Source of the DNA: a virus
Strand: one strand, 5' to 3'
Virus record (IMG/VR): IMGVR_UViG_3300037584_004466
Span: 1-34,940 of that record
DNA length: 34,940 nucleotides
This document shows, in pieces, positions 5,653-34,003 of the stretch (position 1 is the first letter of the stretch; every line of letters starts with the position of its first letter). The notes beneath the pieces were generated by a model. That model was not told the DNA's origin, did not search any database, and was given only the letters and a program-made list of their open reading frames with translations. The translations under genes were made by a program, and so were the position numbers.

Positions 5653-6105
5653 TTATCCGTACGGTTTAATTGGTGTCCAAACCATTGTTGCTCCTGGTAC
5701 AATTTCGTTCCAAGTAATAACTCCAGGTTCTCCTGTTCTTAATGTTAGTGGAGTTGCTGGTGCTGATATACTTGCAGTTCCAACAATTGTAACAGATCCA
5801 GATCTTATAATCAAGTTGTTTCCAGATGCTGTAACATTGGCATCTGCTGATACTGTAACGTTCCCCGTTCCTAAAACCAATGGTGTTTTAGGCGCTTCAA
5901 GATTCGCCGTACCTACAATTGTTACTGTTCCAATACCAAGTGTTAATTTATTTGGTTCGGGAACTTCTGTAATAGCATCTGCTGTTATAATTACAGGTCC
6001 AATACTTAAAGTTAAATTGTTACCATTAATTGATATGGTAACTTGATTATCTGCAGCTACCTGCGAGATGGGAAATTGTGATATTGCGTCAAATCCTAAA
6101 TTCAT
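5653..6105 (-). CDS. Beta-repeat protein with five ~22-residue repeats
   Basis: A 150-residue protein. From residue 29 it is built of about five head-to-tail repeats of 22-23 residues (starting near 29, 52, 74, 96 and 118) with the pattern [NT]xLxLxxGxVTVxxxAxxxAPx. It ends in a Trp-containing cap (ITWNEIVPG, MVWTPIKPYG). Such repeats suggest a beta-solenoid or stacked sheet, as in fibre shafts. It is the first gene after the terminator at 6114-6155. Fibre shaft or fibre-attachment protein is my inference. Confidence 0.7.
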   Translation of the reverse strand: MNLGFDAISQFPISQVAADNQVTISINGNNLTLSIGPVIITADAITEVPEPNKLTLGIGTVTIVGTANLEAPKTPLVLGTGNVTVSADANVTASGNNLIIRSGSVTIVGTASISAPATPLTLRTGEPGVITWNEIVPGATMVWTPIKPYG

Positions 6106-6113
6106 AAATGTCC

Positions 6114-6155
6114 TTAAAAGGAGGCTGCGTGGTATGTGGTGGTGACACAGCCTCC
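6114..6155 (-). terminator. Intrinsic terminator after the oxygenase cassette
   Basis: On the minus strand, GGAGGCTGTGT (6145-6155) pairs over 11 positions, including one U-G wobble, with ACGCAGCCTCC (6120-6130) around a 14-base loop. TTTT (6116-6119) follows immediately. The hairpin lies between the stop at 6180 and the start at 6105, so it would separate the oxygenase genes from the downstream fibre and nozzle genes. Confidence 0.75.
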
Positions 6156-6179
6156 ATCTAAAGATTATATACTATATTT

Positions 6180-6803
6180 CTATAGTATCAACTCTGTTAA
6201 AGTACGATTTGTTCCTAGAGTCCCTTTATAAAAAGTATTAAAAGCTAGACTAATTCTCGTATTATTACCTTGTTTTGTTTGTACTTGATGAGTAGTTGAT
6301 GAAGGAAACATAAATAAATTACCTGTTTTTACAGGAAACCACCAAGTTTCAGAATTCCATAAATTAAATTTTTTCTTATTTATTTTAGGAGACATAAGTT
6401 GATATCCCCTATTACTTGTAAAAAGTATTTTATCGTTAATTTCATCTGCATCAATATATAACACACCAGACACTACAGAATTAGGATGTTCGTGTTTGTG
6501 ATGGTATTGATTAGTCTCAGTATAATTTAACCAAGATTGAGTTATATAAAGTTCTACTTTATTTTCAGGGCATATAACAGTATCTAAATAATTTTTAATA
6601 CATTTATCTAAAAACTTTTTTATATTTTTAAATTGTTTTTTATTTAAAATATAACTATCTTTTGAATTAATATTTCCTTCGTTTTTAAAACAATGTTTTT
6701 TTTGTTCATTTACAAATTGTAATTCTTGTTTTGTAAATCCTCTTTCCATAGAAATAGTGTATATGGGTATTGGAAAAAGAGAATGTATTACAGGAGTATT
6801 CAC
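6180..6803 (-). CDS. Putative 2OG-Fe(II) oxygenase (TIGR02466-like), cassette gene 5
   Basis: A 207-residue protein with the order of motifs of the TIGR02466/2OG-FeII_Oxy_5 group. QSWLNYTE (89-96) is followed by the metal-binding HEH (H104, H106) and NSVVSGVLY (108-116), then LFMFPSSTTHQV with the distal His H172, and TRISLAFN with R183, the likely 2-oxoglutarate-binding Arg. The family uses iron and 2-oxoglutarate to hydroxylate substrates that are mostly unknown. Its start overlaps the upstream homologue by 4 bases, and its stop is followed by a terminator. The coding sequence is far richer in A/T than the flanking fibre genes. Substrate unknown. Confidence 0.8.
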   Translation of the reverse strand: MNTPVIHSLFPIPIYTISMERGFTKQELQFVNEQKKHCFKNEGNINSKDSYILNKKQFKNIKKFLDKCIKNYLDTVICPENKVELYITQSWLNYTETNQYHHKHEHPNSVVSGVLYIDADEINDKILFTSNRGYQLMSPKINKKKFNLWNSETWWFPVKTGNLFMFPSSTTHQVQTKQGNNTRISLAFNTFYKGTLGTNRTLTELIL

Positions 6804-7366
6804 GATATATTAAAAGAAATAGATATTCTTTTATCCTTGCTTAAATTAGGTTCTACATAATGACTTAAAAAAGATGGAAATAATAATAGTTTATTTTCTT
6901 CAGGAATAATTTTCCAGACAGAACTTGTATTATGATTATAAACATTAAGTTTAGAATCCCAAGCATAACCTATGTAATCTTTTAATGGATTTTCAAAAAC
7001 AATTTGTCCAGATTCTTTTAAATATTGCACATAAAATACTCCTGAAATACAACTATTAGGATGTATATGAGATATATTAAAATCTTTATAATTATTTATG
7101 TTTATCCATAAATTATCTAAACTAGAGTTTGTTTTTAAACCTAAAAGTTTTTTATATTCAATAGTATTTCTTACAATAATTTCTTTTAAAAAACTTAATT
7201 GAACAAATTCTTTTATTTTAACATCATTACTTTGATAACCACCTTGATTACTTATAACTCTACCTTCATCTTTTTTTATAATTTGATTAATTTCTTTTTT
7301 TATTTGATCTAAATCTAAAGAAAGATTTATATTCCATATGTTTAATTGAAAAATATTTTGTAACAT
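6800..7366 (-). CDS. Putative 2OG-Fe(II) oxygenase (TIGR02466-like), cassette gene 4
   Basis: A 188-residue protein of the same group as its downstream neighbour but highly diverged. LWININNYKDFN (86-97) leads to H100-x-H102 in SHIHPNSCISGVFYV. A GQIVFENP strand follows (120-127), then LLLFPSFLSHYVEPN with the distal H169 and KRISISFN with R180. All residues expected for Fe(II) and 2-oxoglutarate binding are present, so it is probably an active enzyme. It is coupled by TAATG to the 161-aa gene and overlaps the next gene by 4 bases. Substrate unknown. Confidence 0.82.
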   Translation of the reverse strand: MLQNIFQLNIWNINLSLDLDQIKKEINQIIKKDEGRVISNQGGYQSNDVKIKEFVQLSFLKEIIVRNTIEYKKLLGLKTNSSLDNLWININNYKDFNISHIHPNSCISGVFYVQYLKESGQIVFENPLKDYIGYAWDSKLNVYNHNTSSVWKIIPEENKLLLFPSFLSHYVEPNLSKDKRISISFNIS

Positions 7367-7851
7367 TATGAATAATTTAATAATATAAATGGTGTTGTCT
7401 TATCTTTAACAGGAAAAACAAATTTAAATTGATCATTACTTTTAAACATAACAGAAGTATTTTCAGAACTTTTAATAAATTCATTATTTACATTAATACC
7501 TCCATCACTATTATTTCCAAATAAAACAAAAACGTTTGTATCTATTTTAAATCGATTAAATTCATATTCTGTTTTTTTGTTTCTTTTTGTTAACATTCTA
7601 AACGATAAAGAATGTATTTTTTTATGTGGAATTAATTGTAGTGCAGGCTTAACCATACTTAAATAATTTATAAATTGATTACCTAATAAATTAGAATTTT
7701 TTATTATTTCAGTTTTAAAATGAAATTCTTTTGATGGTCTAAAATTAATGTAATCTTGATATAACCAATAAAATGTATCTCCTGTTAAAGTATCTTTAAT
7801 GCTGCTGTATAATATTGGATCCATAAATCTATATGATATTTGTGGTTTCAT
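7366..7851 (-). CDS. Degenerate oxygenase-fold protein, cassette gene 3
   Basis: A 161-residue protein that I read as a diverged relative of the 170-aa oxygenase just upstream. FYWLYQDYIN (27-36) matches FAWYYNDKVN of that protein. A series of strands (DTNVFVLFGNNSDGGINVN, NTSVMFKSNDQFKFVFPV, PFILLNY) follows its order to the end. The metal and cosubstrate residues are not conserved: no HxD in the expected strand, FKFVF where the active protein has KHAG, and no Arg in the last strand. It could be a catalytically dead partner or a protein of another function with the same fold. The reading frame is intact, and TAATG junctions couple it on both sides. Confidence 0.7.
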   Translation of the reverse strand: MKPQISYRFMDPILYSSIKDTLTGDTFYWLYQDYINFRPSKEFHFKTEIIKNSNLLGNQFINYLSMVKPALQLIPHKKIHSLSFRMLTKRNKKTEYEFNRFKIDTNVFVLFGNNSDGGINVNNEFIKSSENTSVMFKSNDQFKFVFPVKDKTTPFILLNYS

Positions 7852-8363
7852 TATTTAATCTCACTATTGAGGTAGTTAAAGTTTATAAGTATTCTTCTTT
7901 TAGAATCAGTGCTAGTTGTACCAGCGTGTTTTAGTCTTCCATCAAAAAGAATTAGTCTATTTTCACGGCTTTCTATTTCTTCACCTCTTTCAAAAATAGT
8001 TTTTCCGTTGTTGGTGTTTACATAAAAAATTGCAGTCCACCATTTAAAATCCCAAGGACAATCCTTATGAAATTTAAATATTTGTTGTGATGTAGTTTTC
8101 ATCATTAAATTTGCTTTTATTTTTACAATTGAACCCATATTTAATTTGGTAACAAAAGGTTCTATTAAATAAAAAAAATCTGAATTGCTAAAAGTGTTAT
8201 AAAAAACGTGTGTAAATAAATAATTATCTGGGTTTTCTGTAATTCCATCTTCGTCATTAACTTTATCATTATAATACCAGGCAAAATGTTTATTATCAAA
8301 CATAGTTGATTTTAATTTTTTAAAATCTTCTATCGATAAAAAATTATCTATAGTTTTAATCAT
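7851..8363 (-). CDS. 2OG-Fe(II) oxygenase with HxD...H...R, cassette gene 2
   Basis: A 170-residue compact jelly-roll oxygenase. FKFHKDCPWD gives H99-x-D101. AIFYVNTNNGKTIFERGEE (111-129) is the typical strand-turn-strand. ILFDGRLKHAGTT gives the distal H146, and SKRRILINFNY supplies R156/R157 for 2-oxoglutarate. This is the textbook prolyl-4-hydroxylase-like facial triad. The length is short for the family, with almost nothing outside the catalytic core. It overlaps the upstream gene by 8 bases. Substrate unknown; candidates are a fibre protein, a host protein, or a small molecule. Confidence 0.85.
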   Translation of the reverse strand: MIKTIDNFLSIEDFKKLKSTMFDNKHFAWYYNDKVNDEDGITENPDNYLFTHVFYNTFSNSDFFYLIEPFVTKLNMGSIVKIKANLMMKTTSQQIFKFHKDCPWDFKWWTAIFYVNTNNGKTIFERGEEIESRENRLILFDGRLKHAGTTSTDSKRRILINFNYLNSEIK

Positions 8364-8943
8364 AATGATAATGTCCTGTTGCTATATATTTAGTTTCTGT
8401 AGGAGATGCAATTCCTCTATGAGTAAAAGTCCAATCAGTTCCCCAAATAACAGTAAGACCTTTTTCAGGTTTTATTTTTGTATTCTGATAATAAAAAGCT
8501 GTTTCTCCTTTATCACTTACATTATTTAAATATGTCATATAAGTTAAATGTCTACTAGCAGTGTTCATATCAAATGTTTCACAATGCCAAGCGTGATAGC
8601 CCTGATTAGGATAATATCTTTGCAAATTAAATGATTTTGTTCTATTTAAACTCCAAGGAGCTTGATCTTCACTACAATACGTATAAAGTTTTTTATATTC
8701 TTGAAGAACTTTATTTAAATTTTCTAAATATTTTTTTATTACTGGATGTTTAAAATCTGTAACAAATAAGTCTGTAGAATCTTTTTGATCGGGTTTTACT
8801 ATACCAATATGACCTATCTTACCTACAAATGTATCAGGATGTTTTTCAAAGTAGTTTATTAAATCATCACAGTTTTGATCATCATCAACATACCAAGCTG
8901 CAATAAAATTTTTCTTTCTATTTATAGAGTGTTCTCTAAGCAT
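8356..8943 (-). CDS. 2OG-Fe(II) oxygenase (prolyl hydroxylase-like), cassette gene 1
   Basis: A 195-residue protein. RYYPNQGYHAWHCE (109-122) carries the proximal ligands H120 and E122, so the acidic ligand is Glu where Asp is usual. LTYMTYLNN (133-141) and GETAFYYQN (146-154) are core strands. VIWGTDWTFTHRG gives the distal H175, and TKYIATGHYHYD offers K185 in place of the usual Arg. This is the style of phage-encoded PKHD/P4H-like hydroxylases. It is the first gene of the cassette. No Shine-Dalgarno sequence precedes the ATG, and a promoter lies immediately upstream, so the mRNA may be nearly leaderless. Confidence 0.82.
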   Translation of the reverse strand: MLREHSINRKKNFIAAWYVDDDQNCDDLINYFEKHPDTFVGKIGHIGIVKPDQKDSTDLFVTDFKHPVIKKYLENLNKVLQEYKKLYTYCSEDQAPWSLNRTKSFNLQRYYPNQGYHAWHCETFDMNTASRHLTYMTYLNNVSDKGETAFYYQNTKIKPEKGLTVIWGTDWTFTHRGIASPTETKYIATGHYHYD

Positions 8944-8950
8944 ACCGCGA

Positions 8951-8982
8951 AGTATACTATATTATTTAAATTTGATTGTCAA
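8951..8982 (-). promoter_or_regulatory. Sigma70-type promoter driving the oxygenase cassette
   Basis: On the minus strand a perfect TTGACA (8977-8982) overlaps the last codons of the preceding gene. It is followed after 17 bases by TAGTAT (8954-8959, 4 of 6), or after 20 bases by TATACT (8951-8956, 5 of 6). With the 17-base spacing, transcription would begin near 8947, only a few bases ahead of the ATG at 8943, which fits the lack of a ribosome site. Confidence 0.5.
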
Positions 8983-9367
8983 CTTGGTCCCAAGACTGAG
9001 TGTTGTGATTCCAAGTGTAAGATAATCCATCATTAGGTTTTTCAACTGGTGGTTTCCACGTACACGTATCTTCATCTAAAATCCAAGTAGAATATGGTTT
9101 AGGGGGTATAAAGGCATTTTTATCTTCATCATATTTATAACCTACTCCTGGAAAATTTTTTCTAAATGGTGTGCCACCTAATAAATGCACGCCTTCTGAA
9201 GTATTATAAGAACATTGTGCCCAAATAGGCCAATCAGTGTGTTCTGTTAAAAAATCAATTCCTTTTTGTTCTTGTTCAACATTTTGAGAATCTAATAAAA
9301 TGTTGTTGTTTACAGCAACAACACTTAAAACTTTTCCGTTTAATCCTAGCTTTGCAAAACTTGCCAT
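8966..9367 (-). CDS. Fibre-associated protein, copy 2 of duplicated pair
   Basis: A 133-residue protein clearly homologous along its whole length to the 132-aa product at 10703-11101. Shared blocks are MA[ST]FAK[LI]GLNG at the start, HLLGGTPFRKN in the middle, then AFIPPKP, the W-I-DEDTC-W-K-P segment and a W-N-T-Q-W-D ending. Proteins of this type occur next to tail fibres in marine T4-like and podovirus-like phages; I do not know a proven function. A fibre chaperone, cap or accessory subunit is the natural guess. It is coupled to its fibre by TAATG, and its final codons contain the -35 box of the oxygenase promoter. Confidence 0.8.
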   Translation of the reverse strand: MASFAKLGLNGKVLSVVAVNNNILLDSQNVEQEQKGIDFLTEHTDWPIWAQCSYNTSEGVHLLGGTPFRKNFPGVGYKYDEDKNAFIPPKPYSTWILDEDTCTWKPPVEKPNDGLSYTWNHNTQSWDQVDNQI

Positions 9368-9397
9368 TATGTTGTGTAACTCCCTGAACTATTAAAT
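9361..9397 (-). repeat. 37-base direct repeat, copy 1 (fibre cassette junction)
   Basis: Identical at 36 of 37 positions to 11095-11131. It spans the last codons of a glycine-rich fibre (GSYTT-stop), the TAATG junction and the first codons of the partner gene, exactly where a duplicated cassette would join or exchange. Confidence 0.8.
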
Positions 9398-10710
9398 GTT
9401 AATACTGTTTTACCACTAACTCCTGTAGCAACTGTTGGGCTTCCTGTTGTTGTACCACTGTAATTTGCATCGGGCATACTTAAAATAACTACACCTTTTC
9501 CTCCTGCTGTACCATCTCCAATAGTAGCCCCTGAATTATCAGAGCCACCACCTCCACCGCCACCACCGGTATTTGCAGTTCCTGCAGCGGGCGCATCTCC
9601 TGGAGCACCTCCAGCAGCACCACCTCCGGCACCTCCAGATCCAGCTGAACCCGGTGATTTTTGAGTATTTCCTCCACCACCTCCGCCACCACCACGAGTT
9701 ACGGATGAACCTGTTATTGAAGAAGCTGTTCCAGCACCACCATTACCACCTACGGCTTGAGCTGCAACATCAGCACCTACTGCTGTTGCTCCACCTCCGC
9801 CACCACCAGCGCCAATACTTGGAGAACCATTCCAACCATCTCCTCCATCACTTCCTTGAGCGGGACTTGTAGCTGGACTATTACCAGTACCGCCCGTGCC
9901 GCCAGTACCACCATTTAATCCACCTCCGCCACCACCAGAGCCACCATTTGTTCCATCAACTGTTTCTGTTCCACCTTTACCGCCACCAGCAGATTCGATG
10001 GTTGTAAATCCTGTTCCGCTTATTGAACTAGCAGATCCTTCAGTTCCTGTTCCAGCAGGTGATCCACCACCTTCAATTCCTGCAGATCCACCATCTCCAA
10101 CTGTTACTGTAATTACAACTCCTGCTCCAGATGTTTCTTGAGTAGAAGTTCGATAGCCTCCGGCTCCACCGCCTCCACCGCCATAGCAGTGATTACCACC
10201 ACCATTTCCAGCAGAAGAACCGCCACCACCACCAGCAATAACTAACATTTCTATATTATAACCTGGTTCAGGAGCTTCATTTTGTAAACCTGATTCTGTT
10301 ACTAACCAACCTTTTGTAGCGTCTGCATAAACTAAAGTAACTGCGATACCTTCAGTGCTTAATGCTGAATCAGCAGCTACACCACCAATCGGTGAACCAT
10401 TTCTACCTATATTTAATCTGTGTGTATCAAATGTATTTGCATAGTCTTTAAAAGCTACTATATCTCCAGCACTTGGAGATGAGGGTAGAGTTGCTGTTAT
10501 CGTTCCACTTGTTGTGTTTACAAAATATCCCTCTCCTGATACTGCTGTAAAATCTCCTGTTTTAATTGAGGATTGCCAATTAACTGACCCAGCTCTACCA
10601 AAACCTGATTGAGTAGCGCCACTTGCAAGTGTAACTGCAGTACCGGAACCACCTAAAGTTAAGGTTGAACCACTTTGTTTATCTATTGCATCTACTTCTA
10701 TTTTACTCAT
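9367..10710 (-). CDS. Glycine-rich tail fibre, copy 2
   Basis: A 447-residue protein. Residues about 1-50 form a beta-repeat attachment module (IEVDAIDKQSGSTLTLGGSG). Residues about 55-145 form the beta domain shared with the 251-aa and 452-aa fibres (GEGYFVN ... VAFKDYANTFDTHRLNIGRN ... ATKGWLV). From about residue 155 comes a long Gly-rich region opening with MLVIAGGGGG and containing GGGGGGAGGYRTSTQ. The end is a TVLTFNSSGSYTT cap. Gly-rich distal domains with this look are known adhesin folds (polyglycine-II sandwiches in phage S16 gp38 and the Gly_rich_2-type domain). I infer receptor binding. It overlaps the upstream gene by 8 bases. Confidence 0.85.
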   Translation of the reverse strand: MSKIEVDAIDKQSGSTLTLGGSGTAVTLASGATQSGFGRAGSVNWQSSIKTGDFTAVSGEGYFVNTTSGTITATLPSSPSAGDIVAFKDYANTFDTHRLNIGRNGSPIGGVAADSALSTEGIAVTLVYADATKGWLVTESGLQNEAPEPGYNIEMLVIAGGGGGSSAGNGGGNHCYGGGGGGAGGYRTSTQETSGAGVVITVTVGDGGSAGIEGGGSPAGTGTEGSASSISGTGFTTIESAGGGKGGTETVDGTNGGSGGGGGGLNGGTGGTGGTGNSPATSPAQGSDGGDGWNGSPSIGAGGGGGGATAVGADVAAQAVGGNGGAGTASSITGSSVTRGGGGGGGGNTQKSPGSAGSGGAGGGAAGGAPGDAPAAGTANTGGGGGGGGSDNSGATIGDGTAGGKGVVILSMPDANYSGTTTGSPTVATGVSGKTVLTFNSSGSYTT

Positions 10711-11101
10711 CTAAATCCCATTGTTTTGTTTCTTCGTTCCATAAATATTTTTGCCCATCATCTGGTTTTACCACCGGTGCTTTCCACACACAAGTATCTT
10801 CATCTATAATCCACGATGGAAATAAATCTGGTTTAGGTGGAATAAAAGCATCTCTGTCACTATCATATTTAAAACCAATACCAGCGTGGTTTTTTCTAAA
10901 AGGTGTACCACCTAATAAGTGGTCTCCTTTTAAAGTATTAAAAGATGTTTTTTTCCAAATTGGCCAATTAGTTTGTTCTGTTAAAAAATTAACTCCTAAT
11001 TTTTCTTGTTCGATTCCATTAGAATCTGTAATTACTGAATTATCAACAGCAACAACTTCTAAAACTTCACCATTTAATCCTATTTTTGCGAACGTTGCCA
11101 T
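10703..11101 (-). CDS. Fibre-associated protein, copy 1 of duplicated pair
   Basis: A 132-residue homologue of the product at 8966-9367 with the same order of blocks: MATFAKIGLNGEVLEVVAVD, then EQEKLGVNFLTEQTNWPIW, HLLGGTPFRKN, DAFIPPKP, DEDTCVWKAP and a terminal Trp-rich strand. Each copy directly follows a glycine-rich fibre with a TAATG junction, so fibre and partner are probably made in a fixed ratio. The conserved single Cys in DEDTC and the Trp pairs are characteristic. Function unproven; fibre assembly or fibre tip. Confidence 0.8.
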   Translation of the reverse strand: MATFAKIGLNGEVLEVVAVDNSVITDSNGIEQEKLGVNFLTEQTNWPIWKKTSFNTLKGDHLLGGTPFRKNHAGIGFKYDSDRDAFIPPKPDLFPSWIIDEDTCVWKAPVVKPDDGQKYLWNEETKQWDLDE

Positions 11102-11131
11102 TATGTTGTGTAACTCCCCGAACTATTAAAT
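11095..11131 (-). repeat. 37-base direct repeat, copy 2 (fibre cassette junction)
   Basis: The partner of the repeat at 9361-9397, differing at one base. It sits at the equivalent junction between the first glycine-rich fibre and its partner gene. Most of the rest of the two cassettes has diverged well beyond this level. Confidence 0.8.
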
Positions 11132-12459
11132 ACCATAACTGTTTTACTTCCACTTATTGAAACTGTTGGTGATCCTGTTGTTGTACTAGAATAATTTCCA
11201 GTTGGTACTGATAAAATTACAACGCCTTTTCCTCCTGCTCCACCATTATGTGTATTTCCACTTCCTCCACCAGCTCCACCACCGCCGCCAGTGTTTACTG
11301 TTCCAGCTTGTCCTGCTGTTTGATCTCCTCCAGCTCCGCCACCACCTGAACCACCTGCACCTTGTTGTCCACCGGTTTGACCACCAGCACCACCACCGCC
11401 ACCACGAGTAACTGATGTTCCTGATATAGAAGAAGCACTTCCGTCTCCACCTTTACCACCCTGTGTAAGACTCACAGCACTCTGTCCAGCTTGTCCTGCT
11501 CCACCTCCTCCACCACCAGCAGATGTAGTTGCAGAATTACCATTTCCGCCATCGTTTCCTTGAGCAGGAGTTGTAGCTGGTGTATCACCAGCACCGCCTG
11601 CATAAGCGATACCTGAACCATCATTTTGTCCACCAGCACCACCACCAGATCCACCGGCTGTCCCATTGCCTGATTCTGTTCCACCTCTTCCACCACCTGC
11701 ACTACTTATTGTTGTATATCCTGTTCCAGATACAGATGATGCAACACCACTAGCACCTTCACCTGCGGGTGATCCACTTCCGTCAACACCACCTGCTCCA
11801 CCATCTCCAATTGTTACAGTTAAAGTAACTCCTGCGCCCATCAATTGAGTAGAAGTTCTATAGCCTCCAGCGCCACCACCGCCTCCACCTTTAGCGTGGT
11901 TTCCGCCACCATTACCAATAGCACCACCTCCACCACCACCAGCAATAACCAACGCCTCTACTTCATAACCTTGAGGTGCATTGCTTTGATCTCCATCATT
12001 TACAACTAACCATCCTTTAGTTGCGTCTACATAAACTAAAGTTAATGATATACCATCATTAGTTAAATTTATATCTTCTGCAACTCCATTAATTTTTTCA
12101 GATCCATTTGCTGAAATAGTAAAAGGGTGAGTTGCAAAATTATCTGCATAGTCTTTAACACCTACGATTGCTCCAACAGAACCTGCTGGTAAATTCATAG
12201 TTATTGAACCACTTGCATTTACAAAATAACCTTCTCCATTAGCTGCGGTAAAAGTTGAAGTTTTTATAGAACCAGTTTGCCAATCAACAGCTCCTGTTCT
12301 TCCAAAATTATTTGCTGTTCCATTGTTTGTAATCGTTGCTCCAGCAGGAATTGTTATTGTATCACCAGAAGCTCCGATAGTAATAGTATTAGCATTTTCA
12401 TTAATAATATTATTACCGTCTGTATCCTGAACTGTATCTACTTTTATTATACTAGTCAT
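11101..12459 (-). CDS. Glycine-rich tail fibre, copy 1
   Basis: A 452-residue protein with the same layout as the 447-aa fibre. An N-terminal beta-repeat module (ITIGASGDTITIPAGATITN) resembles the repeats of the 238-aa fibre upstream. The shared beta domain covers about residues 55-155 (GEGYFVN ... VGVKDYADNFATHPFTISAN ... ATKGWLV). A Gly-rich region begins with ALVIAGGGGG and includes GGGGGGAGGYRTSTQ. The end is a SKTVMVFNSSGSYTT cap. Receptor recognition through the Gly-rich part is inferred from the adhesin analogy. An AAAGGA ribosome site precedes the ATG. Confidence 0.85.
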   Translation of the reverse strand: MTSIIKVDTVQDTDGNNIINENANTITIGASGDTITIPAGATITNNGTANNFGRTGAVDWQTGSIKTSTFTAANGEGYFVNASGSITMNLPAGSVGAIVGVKDYADNFATHPFTISANGSEKINGVAEDINLTNDGISLTLVYVDATKGWLVVNDGDQSNAPQGYEVEALVIAGGGGGGAIGNGGGNHAKGGGGGGAGGYRTSTQLMGAGVTLTVTIGDGGAGGVDGSGSPAGEGASGVASSVSGTGYTTISSAGGGRGGTESGNGTAGGSGGGAGGQNDGSGIAYAGGAGDTPATTPAQGNDGGNGNSATTSAGGGGGGAGQAGQSAVSLTQGGKGGDGSASSISGTSVTRGGGGGAGGQTGGQQGAGGSGGGGAGGDQTAGQAGTVNTGGGGGAGGGSGNTHNGGAGGKGVVILSVPTGNYSSTTTGSPTVSISGSKTVMVFNSSGSYTT

Positions 12460-12462
12460 TTA

Positions 12463-12738
12463 TTATTCCTTTGGATATTTGTCCTTTGTTATTTTAATTG
12501 TAGCTTTCCAACCATCTATTCCATTGTGATAGATGTCGTCAAGTTGGTCTTTTATACTTGGATATTCGGCTGCTCTATTAATTTTATATTGATCTGGATC
12601 TGTCCAAGCATTAACTTGAGTCCAATCAATAGCAACATTATTTCCATTAATATCTGTTGCAACAATATTGTTCTGATTAGAACCATTTATAGTAGTAACT
12701 GAATTATGTATAGCTCTAATTGCTTTATGTAAATCCAT
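12463..12738 (-). CDS. Small fibre-region protein
   Basis: I take the ATG at 12736-12738, which overlaps the stop of the preceding fibre gene (TAATG), and not the upstream TTG; this gives 91 residues beginning MDLHKAIRAIHNSV. The end of the preceding gene supplies a GGAGGT ribosome site about ten bases away. The C-terminal part (YPSIKDQLDDIYHNGIDGWK, then ATIKITKDKYPKE) is a motif I know from small proteins encoded beside tail fibres in many phages. Fibre assembly or a fibre-tip role is possible. Confidence 0.75.
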   Translation of the reverse strand: MDLHKAIRAIHNSVTTINGSNQNNIVATDINGNNVAIDWTQVNAWTDPDQYKINRAAEYPSIKDQLDDIYHNGIDGWKATIKITKDKYPKE

Positions 12739-13454
12739 TACGCTAATACCTCCATACAAACTATATTAGATGCTGCTCTCCACTCTCCACTATTATCAGT
12801 ATCATTTGCTCCTCTGTTTAAATAAAGAGTTGCTGAACTTTCAGTAGCACCCATAACTTTATAAGTTATTTCTGATGTTGTGCTTGGACTATCTAAAAAA
12901 GTCATACTAAAGTTTGCAAAATCTTGAGCTTCATTTGTTCTTTTTGACATAAATGTTCTTGCTCTACTGCCAGCTGCATCTCCTATTAAAAGTTCTGTAT
13001 CAGATCCACCCACTGTTCTAATAAGTTTTCCAGCCATTTCATAATTTGTAGTTCCTGAAAAAGAAGCAGTAGTCATAATTAAAATTTTACTAGATGTTGC
13101 AGTTGGTGTAATTGTTCTACTAAAACCTGTTGGGTTATAGAATGTGTTTCCAGATGTAGATTGAGACCAAGTATCAGTTTTTGTAGTTGTAACTACTTGA
13201 TTTATTTTACCACCACCAAATCCTGTAGCTGTTCCAGAATTTGTTATTGTTGCACCCGCGGGTATTGTAAATGTGTCTCCTGAATCTCCTAAAGTAAAAG
13301 CTGTTCCTGTAGCTGGAGAAATTTTATTTGTTTTAACTTCATCTGTAACTGTTAATCCAGCACCAGTTGGAACTGTAAATGTATCTCCGCTGTCGCCTAG
13401 AGTAAAAGCTGTTCCGGATCTTGGGCTTATTTTATTTACTTTTACTTCACTCAT
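12738..13454 (-). CDS. Tail fibre-like protein with N-terminal tandem repeat
   Basis: A 238-residue protein. Residues 4-32 and 40-68 are near-identical repeats (KxNKISPxxGTAFTLGDSGD core) offset by 36 residues, ending in the IPAGATITNSGTATGFGG segment that also occurs in the 452-aa fibre. From about residue 75 a separate beta domain follows, rich in Thr/Ser (TPTATSSKILIMTTASFSGT, SEITYKVMGA). The repeat is probably a particle-attachment module shared by the fibres. The distal domain resembles a receptor-binding head, but I recognise no specific family. Confidence 0.78.
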   Translation of the reverse strand: MSEVKVNKISPRSGTAFTLGDSGDTFTVPTGAGLTVTDEVKTNKISPATGTAFTLGDSGDTFTIPAGATITNSGTATGFGGGKINQVVTTTKTDTWSQSTSGNTFYNPTGFSRTITPTATSSKILIMTTASFSGTTNYEMAGKLIRTVGGSDTELLIGDAAGSRARTFMSKRTNEAQDFANFSMTFLDSPSTTSEITYKVMGATESSATLYLNRGANDTDNSGEWRAASNIVCMEVLA

Positions 13455-31491: not shown

Positions 31492-32540
31492 TATACCATT
31501 CCTCCGTATTCGAATCGCGGTTCTGGTTTTTGTACTCTCGACATAATTTCATCGACATACTTATTCCAAAAACTTAAATCGTAATTAATGTTTTCAAATT
31601 CTAATTCATCTGCAACTTTTTGTACAAAAGCTTTTGGATTGTTTGCTAAACGATCTCTTGCAGTTGATAAACCTCTAAATATCTCACTAACTTTTTCTTC
31701 AGAAACTCCTGCGTTTTCTAAATCATCTACAATTCCATTATTAATTTTTGTAACAACATTACGCGACATTGCTCCATAAGAATCATAACCCATTGGCCCA
31801 TCATTATAGCCTTCGCCTCTCCACCAGTTTGGTCCGTAGTTTGCTATGTCATCATCTAGATCAGCTAATAACTCTTGTTTAATTTTTGTATCAGCAGACA
31901 TATCCGCGGCACGCGCTAAAGTAGTTGCTGCCTTTTTACCTTGTCCTAAATTTACTACTTCTTTAGGAGCATCAGGATCTCCTCTTCGTGCAGGTTGTCT
32001 TTCAAAAAATGTTTCTTCTTTTATAACTTTTTGAATGTCTTCGTTTTTAATTCCCGCTTCTCGCATTGCTTTCATAAATGCAGCGACTTCTGCTCTATTA
32101 GAATTTTTTTGATCGAAGATAGAATCTGTTTTACCTTTAGGGAATAGCGAACCGAGGCCTTCTTCTTTGGCTGGTCCTAACTTCTCCGTCAACTCACCAA
32201 AACTTTCATCACCTCTTAATGTTACACCATATATGTCTTCAACTTTATCTGTTCCTGGTGTATCAGACATCTCTCCAGCTTTTTGTACGTTGGGTCCTTT
32301 TTTCTTGCCGCCTAATCTAAGATCACCAGGACCAAAAAAAACTTCTTCTACACCTTGAGCTTCTATTCCACTAGGTGCATCTTTTACAAATTCATTTAAG
32401 ATAAGTGCACGTTCTTCTTCTGTTGGTTGTTTACCTGTAGTTCTAAAATAATCTTCTATGACATCAGAAACCTTTGCAGCTCCTGATTTAATGCCATCTC
32501 TAAATTTTACTAAAGTTTGTAATAATAGTCTATTTGCCAT
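31491..32540 (-). CDS. Hypothetical protein between terminase and ejection genes
   Basis: A 349-residue charged protein, MANRLLLQTLVKFRDGIKSG onward. It is largely helical with long polar linkers (AEVAAFMKAMREAGIKNEDI, TKIKQELLADLDDDIANYGP, WWRGEGYNDGPMGYDSYG). It ends FEYGGMV, whose codons provide GGAGGA for the next start. A structural or injected virion component is suggested by its place and by the shared Gly-Gly ending. It could also hold a packaging role, as no small terminase subunit is otherwise seen. TAATG couples it to terL. Confidence 0.75.
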   Translation of the reverse strand: MANRLLLQTLVKFRDGIKSGAAKVSDVIEDYFRTTGKQPTEEERALILNEFVKDAPSGIEAQGVEEVFFGPGDLRLGGKKKGPNVQKAGEMSDTPGTDKVEDIYGVTLRGDESFGELTEKLGPAKEEGLGSLFPKGKTDSIFDQKNSNRAEVAAFMKAMREAGIKNEDIQKVIKEETFFERQPARRGDPDAPKEVVNLGQGKKAATTLARAADMSADTKIKQELLADLDDDIANYGPNWWRGEGYNDGPMGYDSYGAMSRNVVTKINNGIVDDLENAGVSEEKVSEIFRGLSTARDRLANNPKAFVQKVADELEFENINYDLSFWNKYVDEIMSRVQKPEPRFEYGGMV

Positions 32541-34003
32541 TAGTAATACGTTCTCTCTGTTCGTGGTAGTGCATCGTCCTTATAATCTTCAGGGTGAGAT
32601 ACAAACCCGCCCTGTCTAAAACGCATTACCGCTTGTGTTGTACTGTCCACCAAGTCGTCGTTATCTCCATACGGAAATGATGCACATTCTTCAATAACCT
32701 CTTCAGCGAATTTTTCATCGGGCGCCCAAATGACACCAGACTCAAAGAGCGGGGCCACAGCGTTTACTCTAGCGTGTTTGTCTTGTCCTTTGCTAGGTGT
32801 GTAATTTATAACAGGAATACCCATCTTTCGCAACTCGTAAGTTAAAGGCATTCCAGATGCTTTTGCTTCCACGATCACCGTTTCAGGATTCCAATATTTA
32901 TACTGCTCTAGTGCTTCTTTACGTAGTTCTGGAAACTCTAATCTATCTTTAAACGCATCTAATAGTATGAGATTTGCAGGTGAATCATCATCTGGATAAA
33001 AAACTCCCCAAGTTGTTATTGCACTGTAATCAGCTGTCTCCTTTTTTAAAAAAGCTGTATCGTATGATTGTATAACGTGTTGTAAGGGTGGTATATAACC
33101 TTTGTCCCAAACTTTCCACCACTCACGTTTGATTAAAGATCCTTCTTCAGCTGTAGGATTTTGCATCCACTGCGCGTTCCATTTACCTACACTTAAACTG
33201 GCTTTAACTCCTTCTAGTTCATCGAGCTTCCAATACTCAGGCCACACAGGTTTATTTGATGGCATAATGGCAGGAAACTCTATGATCTCCCACTTGTCTG
33301 ATTTTAATTCTTTTTGAGATTTTAATAACATACCTGTTAAGTCTTTCATATTCCATCTTGTCATTACAACAACAATCGATCCACCTGGTTGTAAACGTTG
33401 ACGTGGACCTGATGTATACCATTCATAAGCACGCTCCAACGCTTGAATGTTTAACGCGTCTTGTTCCGAGTGTGGGTCATCGATAATCAGTAAGTCCGCA
33501 CCACGGCCCGTGATTGCAGATCCAACACCAGCGGCGTAGTATTCACCACCCTGTTCTGTTTCCCATTTACCCGCGGCTTGCGAATCTTCTCTGAGTCTTG
33601 TTTTAAAAACAGATTGATACTCAGGAGAATCAATTAATGTTTTTGCTTTACGACCAAAACGTACAGCGAGTTCTGTTGTGTGAGTCGTTTGAATTATTTT
33701 TAAATCTGGTTTACGTCCGATCATCCAGGCAGGAAGTAAAAATGATGCAAACTCTGACTTAGTATGTCTTGGTGGCATATTAATAATTAATCTTTTGATC
33801 TCACCCTTTGCAATCTTGTTAAATTTTTCTGCAATTTTTTTATGGTGTTTACCTTCAATGAATTGCGGCCAGACGTGTTTTACAAAAGATAAAAAATCTT
33901 TGTTAACTGTTTCTTGTTTTGTTTTTTCGTCTAGCTTCATTGCTAGTCTTAGGAATTCTTTTTGCGCGTCGGGCGGAAGCTTCTCAATAAAATCTTGTTT
34001 CAT
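32540..34003 (-). CDS. terL: Terminase large subunit
   Basis: A 487-residue packaging motor. The ATPase part has a Walker A-like PPRHTKSE (77-84), adenine-proximal INMPP, Walker B LLIIDD (171-176) with the following DPHSEQD, and the coupling motif VMTRW (213-217). The nuclease part has the RNase H-like acidic residues D315 (IQSYDTAF), E379 (TVIVEA) and D449/D450/D453 (GDNDDLVDS). Length and order match the family. It packages DNA into the head through the portal and cuts it. The C-terminal RQGGFVSHPED shows the recurrent Gly-Gly string. There is no ribosome site before the ATG. A GC-rich hairpin region lies upstream. Confidence 0.95.
   Translation of the reverse strand: MKQDFIEKLPPDAQKEFLRLAMKLDEKTKQETVNKDFLSFVKHVWPQFIEGKHHKKIAEKFNKIAKGEIKRLIINMPPRHTKSEFASFLLPAWMIGRKPDLKIIQTTHTTELAVRFGRKAKTLIDSPEYQSVFKTRLREDSQAAGKWETEQGGEYYAAGVGSAITGRGADLLIIDDPHSEQDALNIQALERAYEWYTSGPRQRLQPGGSIVVVMTRWNMKDLTGMLLKSQKELKSDKWEIIEFPAIMPSNKPVWPEYWKLDELEGVKASLSVGKWNAQWMQNPTAEEGSLIKREWWKVWDKGYIPPLQHVIQSYDTAFLKKETADYSAITTWGVFYPDDDSPANLILLDAFKDRLEFPELRKEALEQYKYWNPETVIVEAKASGMPLTYELRKMGIPVINYTPSKGQDKHARVNAVAPLFESGVIWAPDEKFAEEVIEECASFPYGDNDDLVDSTTQAVMRFRQGGFVSHPEDYKDDALPRTERTYY

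Follow-up and report, generated by a model that had tools for sequence, protein, structure and literature searches.

A fibre-adjacent array of 2-oxoglutarate oxygenase-fold genes in a pelagiphage includes a conserved, catalytically dead member

We analysed a stretch of viral DNA of 34,940 nucleotides (positions 1 to 34,940 of IMG/VR record IMGVR_UViG_3300037584_004466; hereafter, the window) in which five consecutive genes set between fibre and tail genes encode proteins with the fold of 2-oxoglutarate (2OG)-Fe(II) oxygenases. Four of them are classed as oxygenases by profile match and complete ligand pattern, and the fifth, P0003, is a pseudo-oxygenase that is conserved in related phages. We regard this anatomy as virtually certain. 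As to its function, we propose, at about even chances, that the array hydroxylates the fibre or adhesin proteins of the phage itself. The terminase encoded at 32540-34003 shares 78% identity with its counterpart in phage 023Pt_psg01 and 76% with the one in Pelagibacter phage HTVC027P and therefore, judged from sequence, the window is most of the genome of an HTVC023P-type pelagiphage, a podovirus of Pelagibacter (SAR11), the commonest bacterium of the ocean.

The five open reading frames of the array are all on the minus strand, and neighbouring genes overlap by 1 to 8 bases, as expected from an earlier annotation of this DNA (the original prediction), which had described a tightly coupled cassette. 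In order of transcription they are:

8356..8943, minus strand: P0001, P4H (prolyl 4-hydroxylase)-like 2OG oxygenase, 195 amino acids (aa); H120-x-E122...H175...K185; PF13640 1.4e-8 (above cut-off), PHROG 61 7.8e-33
7851..8363, minus strand: P0002, PHROG 274-type 2OG oxygenase, 170 aa; H99-x-D101...H146...R156; PHROG 274 2.9e-46, PF13640 6.7e-4 (below cut-off)
7366..7851, minus strand: P0003, pseudo-oxygenase, 161 aa; lacks the ligand and 2OG-binding residues; PHROG 274 4e-5 as its sole profile match
6800..7366, minus strand: P0004, PF13759/TIGR02466 oxygenase, 188 aa; H100-x-H102...H169...R180; PF13759 1.1e-22, TIGR02466 7.7e-25
6180..6803, minus strand: P0005, PF13759/TIGR02466 oxygenase, 207 aa, the array's final gene, with a GTG start; PF13759 1.2e-22, TIGR02466 2.2e-21

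Searches with the five proteins against Pfam, PHROGs and NCBIfam placed those of 195, 188 and 207 aa above cut-off and tied those of 170 and 161 aa to the oxygenases via PHROG 274. The division into at least two subfamilies that had been proposed is thus right, with the 188- and 207-aa proteins TIGR02466-like, but the 170- and 161-aa proteins belong to PHROG 274 and not, as had been thought, to the P4H-like family of the 195-aa protein. In family alignments, the first His, the D/E and the distal His of P0001 are present in 76 of 76 members, and HxH...H in 129 of 129 members of the PF13759 type, whose full pattern is HxH...H...R. The PHROG 274-type alignment has the triad in 51 of 60 rows, the remaining nine being the P0003 clade (eight distinct sequences, since that of the window is counted twice). 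P0001 matches P4H chains in the PDB by sequence, 5c5t among them, and P0004 and P0005 have solved relatives there (2rg4, 3bvc); the P0003/P0002 profile had no match in a sequence search of the PDB. The counterpart of P0005 in the related locus L039 is 89% identical. Four members carry complete ligand patterns, more than the one oxygenase that the original prediction regarded as ordinary for a phage. The array is also rich in A/T, as claimed (GC content 0.24 versus 0.37), and the versions of such genes in relatives are generally A/T-rich too.

The 161-aa protein had been described as a degenerate, dead-looking copy. Dead it is, but it is not decaying. An AlphaFold2 model of P0003 is a double-stranded beta-helix of the 2OG type (pLDDT, the predicted local distance difference test, 92.6; pTM, the predicted template modelling score, 0.88), completing the oxygenase fold for all five proteins. 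Foldseek aligns this model with PDB entries of 2OG oxygenases, among them prolyl hydroxylases and PHD2, with E-values down to 4e-5, the matches including 5c5u, 8ag3 (E 3.7e-4) and 4iw3, and with a phage protein model at a template modelling score of 0.88. None of the eight distinct sequences of the clade has the HxD, the 2OG-binding Arg or the distal His; P0003 and its orthologues (in L039, L043, L045, L046, L052, L120 and L140) share approximately 47-80% mutual identity. Pairwise ratios of nonsynonymous to synonymous substitution (dN/dS) of 0.20-0.57 indicate purifying selection. Because the modelled fold is kept, the loss of residues is clade-wide and selection is purifying, P0003 is a conserved pseudo-oxygenase, a homologue with the 2OG fold and not an oxygenase; in view of the orthologues and dN/dS we dropped the idea of a recent pseudogene. 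These relatives were located via neighbouring genes, and a search by sequence alone found no close relative of P0003 in viral contigs or in the phage collection. PHROG 274 is labelled 'DNA endonuclease V'. T4 endonuclease V (DenV) is a small helical glycosylase/lyase; the members of PHROG 274 show HxD...H, partial PF13640 matches and, for the dead member, a beta-helix model. Residues and fold do not support the label, which is probably wrong.

A second dead lineage, the P0008 type, consists of HTVC023P gp64 and 50 unique core relatives. It has neither HxH nor the distal His, its median dN/dS is 0.145, and of the 61 complete arrays from HTVC023P-type phages, 45 open with a gene of this type. 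Two examples are:

L134, 12208-12711: P0008-type gene
L136, 12549-13052: P0008-type gene

An intact PF13759 protein (L240, 305-859; 7.7e-15) matches the P0008 profile at 6.8e-13, which argues well, at the level of sequence and not of structure, that the P0008 type is an independently inactivated oxygenase lineage related to PF13759. The tie rests on this bridging protein because a direct profile comparison with a clean alignment reached only 72.5%. An earlier comparison (99.8%) was discarded, since its iterated alignment could have taken in true oxygenases. We also observed in HTVC008M a gene of 140 aa (L153, 8403-8825) that adjoins the oxygenase array and resembles a third degenerate PF13759 protein (73.5% in hhalign, over 26 columns only).

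The array of the window stands in a defined order of genes. Fibre-like genes span 9367-13454, and two of them encode Gly_rich_2 proteins (PF21722), each followed by a phrog_7759 gene. The second such pair leads into the array (8943-6180), after which come an RNA hairpin and the tail genes:

9367..10710, minus strand: Gly_rich_2 fibre/adhesin-like protein, 447 aa, candidate substrate; PF21722 2.4e-5, barely over cut-off
8966..9367, minus strand: phrog_7759 gene, 133 aa, adjoining the array upstream; PHROG 7759 6.5e-35
6111..6164, minus strand: covarying RNA hairpin, 8 + 10-11 bp, with a 14-nucleotide loop, CACCACCACATACC, at 6131-6144; boundary of array and tail
5653..6105, minus strand: 150-aa gene opening the tail module 3' of the hairpin; among the matches listed, 100 of 120 contigs have a homologue there

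The same succession of Gly_rich_2 fibre, phrog_7759, oxygenase array, hairpin and tail gene is the usual one in relatives. HTVC023P, 023Pt_psg01 and HTVC027P carry 2OG-type genes in this slot; PF21722 is found at the equivalent position in 023Pt_psg01, HTVC023P and the T4-like cyanophages S-SM1 and S-RSM4, the last two having tail-fibre genes, Gly_rich_2 and phrog_7759 and then some ten genes, most of which are of these oxygenase types. In HTVC008M five such genes, in inverted orientation, lie next to a Gly_rich_2 protein, and in the freshwater phage DSL-LC04 a lone 2OG gene separates a Gly_rich_2 protein from phrog_7759. The array begins directly 3' of phrog_7759 in 83 of 91 contigs containing both, versus 23 of 707 other genes, in a set that was picked by 2OG queries and hence is not independent. 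A second set, of at least 120 contigs (near-duplicates possible), was selected by the hairpin regardless of 2OG genes. Among the matches listed from it, the gene upstream of the hairpin was visible in 108 of 120 and of 2OG type in 107 of those 108 (89 of the 'ferrochelatase' type treated below and 18 of PF13759).

Such frequencies contradict the original prediction of a moron, a cassette of sporadic cargo: because a 2OG-type gene precedes the hairpin so regularly, and with the same order in T4-like cyanophages, the slot is stable as far as gene order can tell. The genes are clustered beside fibres in related phages and not scattered, in line with the placement between fibre and tail genes described before. 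Array membership does differ strongly from phage to phage (mostly three to five oxygenases), as would be expected of a hypervariable slot that collects 2OG genes with no shared task and keeps dead members as relics. This already disfavoured explanation is very improbable, since both dead clades are ancient, have stayed intact and show the purifying selection given above, and the slot contains hardly any genes of other than 2OG type.

For the array as a whole we favour tailoring of the fibres because of its fibre-adjacent position across phage families and hosts, the number of oxygenases, the dead members and the rare presence of a halogenase or carbamoyltransferase. Four active Fe(II)/2OG oxygenases and a dead relative would be made as one overlapping transcript unit and would hydroxylate side chains of the receptor-binding proteins before assembly, the likeliest substrates being the Gly_rich_2 fibres, their phrog_7759 partner, or both. 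Each subfamily would hit separate sites; P0003 would most likely serve as a non-catalytic partner, holding the substrate or pairing allosterically with an active member; and as enzymes were gained or lost, the adhesin surface would become more diverse. Several observations weigh against this proposal. Synteny is no proof of substrate; seven of ten newly fetched phrog_7759 loci have no detectable 2OG genes; the arrays of HTVC027P and HTVC008M are on the strand opposite to the fibres; the gene adjoining the HTVC027P array is not Gly_rich_2; and many cyanophage 2OG genes lie far from fibres (S-B64).

Fibre-adjacent slots commonly carry host-interaction cargo, and the target of the array could instead be a host protein or the surface of the host cell, whose modification might, for instance, prevent superinfection or change a receptor. 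The inverted arrays of HTVC027P and HTVC008M, which make independent expression possible, agree with this, as does the presence of a Pseudomonas P4H acting on EF-Tu (4iw3) among the fold matches of P0003. We nevertheless consider a host target unlikely, since the position beside the fibres is common to podoviruses and to T4-like phages that infect different hosts, and in this phage group 2OG genes fill the slot almost without exception, which fits a fibre partner better than free cargo.

Occasionally an array also contains an enzyme for tailoring side chains or hydroxyl groups, which we count in favour of fibre modification. A tryptophan halogenase (PF04820, 9e-111; L204, 1629-3113) and a carbamoyltransferase (PF16861 6e-46/PF02543; L262, 7932-9284) each lie within one of the 61 arrays, and in HTVC008M a tryptophan halogenase gene (L153, 15764-17158) is directly 3' of a 2OG gene. 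As 2OG oxygenases, tryptophan halogenases and carbamoyltransferases are typical of tailoring pathways, the array might build or decorate a small molecule or peptide resembling a natural product, with the two rare enzymes as extra steps. The chances of this are poor, given their rarity, the linkage to fibre genes and the arrays themselves, in which we found neither an enzyme that forms a scaffold nor a gene for a precursor peptide. Returning to the fibres, we suggest more tentatively, and with considerable doubt, a modular maturation machine in which active oxygenases and the two pseudo-oxygenase lineages (P0003 and P0008), sometimes joined by halogenases or carbamoyltransferases, would place combinatorial modifications on glycine-rich adhesins or phrog_7759 and so tune receptor recognition chemically as well as by sequence.

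The genes labelled 'ferrochelatase' (PHROG 2954/3531; P0006 and P0007) commonly end these arrays, a last position at which P0005-type genes stand in for them. They do not match the ferrochelatase profile, P0006 and P0007 have no Pfam match at all, and a PDB sequence search gave none. H-x-D is present in 25 of 25 relatives and a downstream HW(R/K) in 24 of 25. The following carry the H-x-D...HWR motif:

L134, 14439-15095: 'ferrochelatase'-labelled gene
L136, 14302-14922: 'ferrochelatase'-labelled gene
L150, 16634-17750: 'ferrochelatase'-labelled gene
L151, 2735-3370: 'ferrochelatase'-labelled gene
L153, 8809-9450: 'ferrochelatase'-labelled gene

Comparisons with 2OG families in hhalign (77% and 40%) are only suggestive, and one with the P4H family was set aside, as its two alignments were linked by a fusion protein; this protein (L037, 12827-13950) joins a 'ferrochelatase'-type domain to a P4H-like domain. 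From the conserved residues we conclude that the type is probably a further 2OG subfamily under a wrong label. This bears on whether the array consists of auxiliary metabolic genes adjusting the 2OG pool, nitrogen signalling or iron metabolism of the host, a role suggested for cyanophages (PMC9602691), with a link to iron in the case of HTVC027P (PMC12753301) and with the neighbouring genes taken as ferrochelatases (PMC9599517). The 2OG ligand pattern in those genes removes the haem link. To consume 2OG, a phage would not need between three and seven different oxygenases and a conserved dead member besides, and a metabolic role leaves the fixed position beside the fibres unexplained; we find it improbable.

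The hairpin at the 3' boundary of the array covers a terminator proposed at 6114-6155. It is real (folding z = -7.9) and does mark the boundary, but it is a conserved, covarying RNA element and not a plain terminator. The segment 6111-6164 folds as a single hairpin of 18-19 bp with a U-U mismatch. In 24 distinct sequences, 12 of 19 pairs show changes on both sides and 99.3% of pair cells are standard; none of 500 shuffles reaches the real value, and slid structures drop to 46-60%. The loop CACCACCACATACC is near-invariant across the at least 120 viral contigs, and a covariance model finds the hairpin 3' of arrays, once per contig (the window included) and on the same strand as the array, with weaker echoes in antisense. 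Copies in relatives are:

L039, 3645-3712: hairpin
L134, 15088-15164: hairpin
L136, 14915-14993: hairpin

An Rfam search gave no family match. The only U-run has four U, all paired inside the outer helix, and this lack of an unpaired run, together with the covariation and the conserved loop, argues against a plain intrinsic terminator. In most relatives the outer helix includes AAGGA, the ribosome-binding sequence of the gene that follows; TATAAT (6164-6169) occurs immediately ahead of this helix or within it. The element is more likely a 5' leader or processing site of the tail transcript, and possibly a translational operator.

At the other end, the array had been assigned a promoter at 8951-8982. 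We located there one possible site:

8954..8982, minus strand: possible sigma-70 promoter of the array, TTGACA-17-TAGTAT, 10 of 12 consensus matches

Promoter-like sites occur in the region at chance density (27 found versus 27.5 expected), which weakens the assignment, but TTGACA recurs at this position in about a dozen relatives and is fully intergenic in two. The inverted arrays of HTVC027P and HTVC008M imply promoters of their own.

That such phages carry multiple 2OG genes is already known. HTVC023P-type pelagiphages, the group to which the window belongs, were reported to have eight 2OG-Fe(II) genes that are not orthologous to one another, frequently close together and beside 'ferrochelatases' (PMC9599517), and the T4-like cyanophage S-SCSM1 has 24 (PMC9602691). 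The pelagiphage report describes the genes as near and not adjacent, with a partner in haem synthesis, whereas here they form one overlapping fibre-adjacent array; the 2OG ligand pattern of the 'ferrochelatase' type, the two conserved dead lineages and the conserved hairpin go beyond it. In the open-licence literature we found no account of the fibre-linked order, of conserved pseudo-oxygenases or of the hairpin. T4-like cyanophages share the P4H-like, PF13759, PHROG 274 and 'ferrochelatase' subfamilies with pelagiphage arrays and, in S-SM1 and S-RSM4, the array after Gly_rich_2 and phrog_7759; they differ in phage family, host and larger arrays, and no close relative of the P0003 clade was found among them in the phage collection. 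The collagen prolyl hydroxylase of virus PBCV-1 (5c5t/5c5u) is matched by P0001 in sequence and by dead P0003 in its model; unlike it, P0001 has H-x-E and weak similarity only, and the glycine-rich fibres of the window are not collagen repeats. The match 8ag3, the N-terminal domain of vaccinia C16 with a prolyl-hydroxylase-like fold binding PHD2, is like P0003 a viral fold of this kind without catalysis. C16 targets animal host proteins, whereas P0003 sits in an operon with active phage paralogues, which makes an intramolecular or operon partner more likely.

If fibres were enzymatically modified, host range in the ocean would be unreadable from fibre sequence alone, and the puzzling 'auxiliary metabolic' 2OG genes would be enzymes of virion maturation. 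The published haem and iron interpretation would fall away once the genes labelled 'ferrochelatase' and 'DNA endonuclease V' were renamed. Cultured representatives exist (HTVC023P and HTVC027P, on HTCC1062), and with the fixed slot they make the question directly testable.

Finally, phrog_7759 proteins are Trp- and Pro-rich and of about 130 aa. Their AlphaFold2 model (pLDDT 89.7) had no convincing match in the PDB (best E 0.19), and weak matches to EGF domains were dismissed as noise. The other phrog_7759 gene of the window is at 10703-11101.

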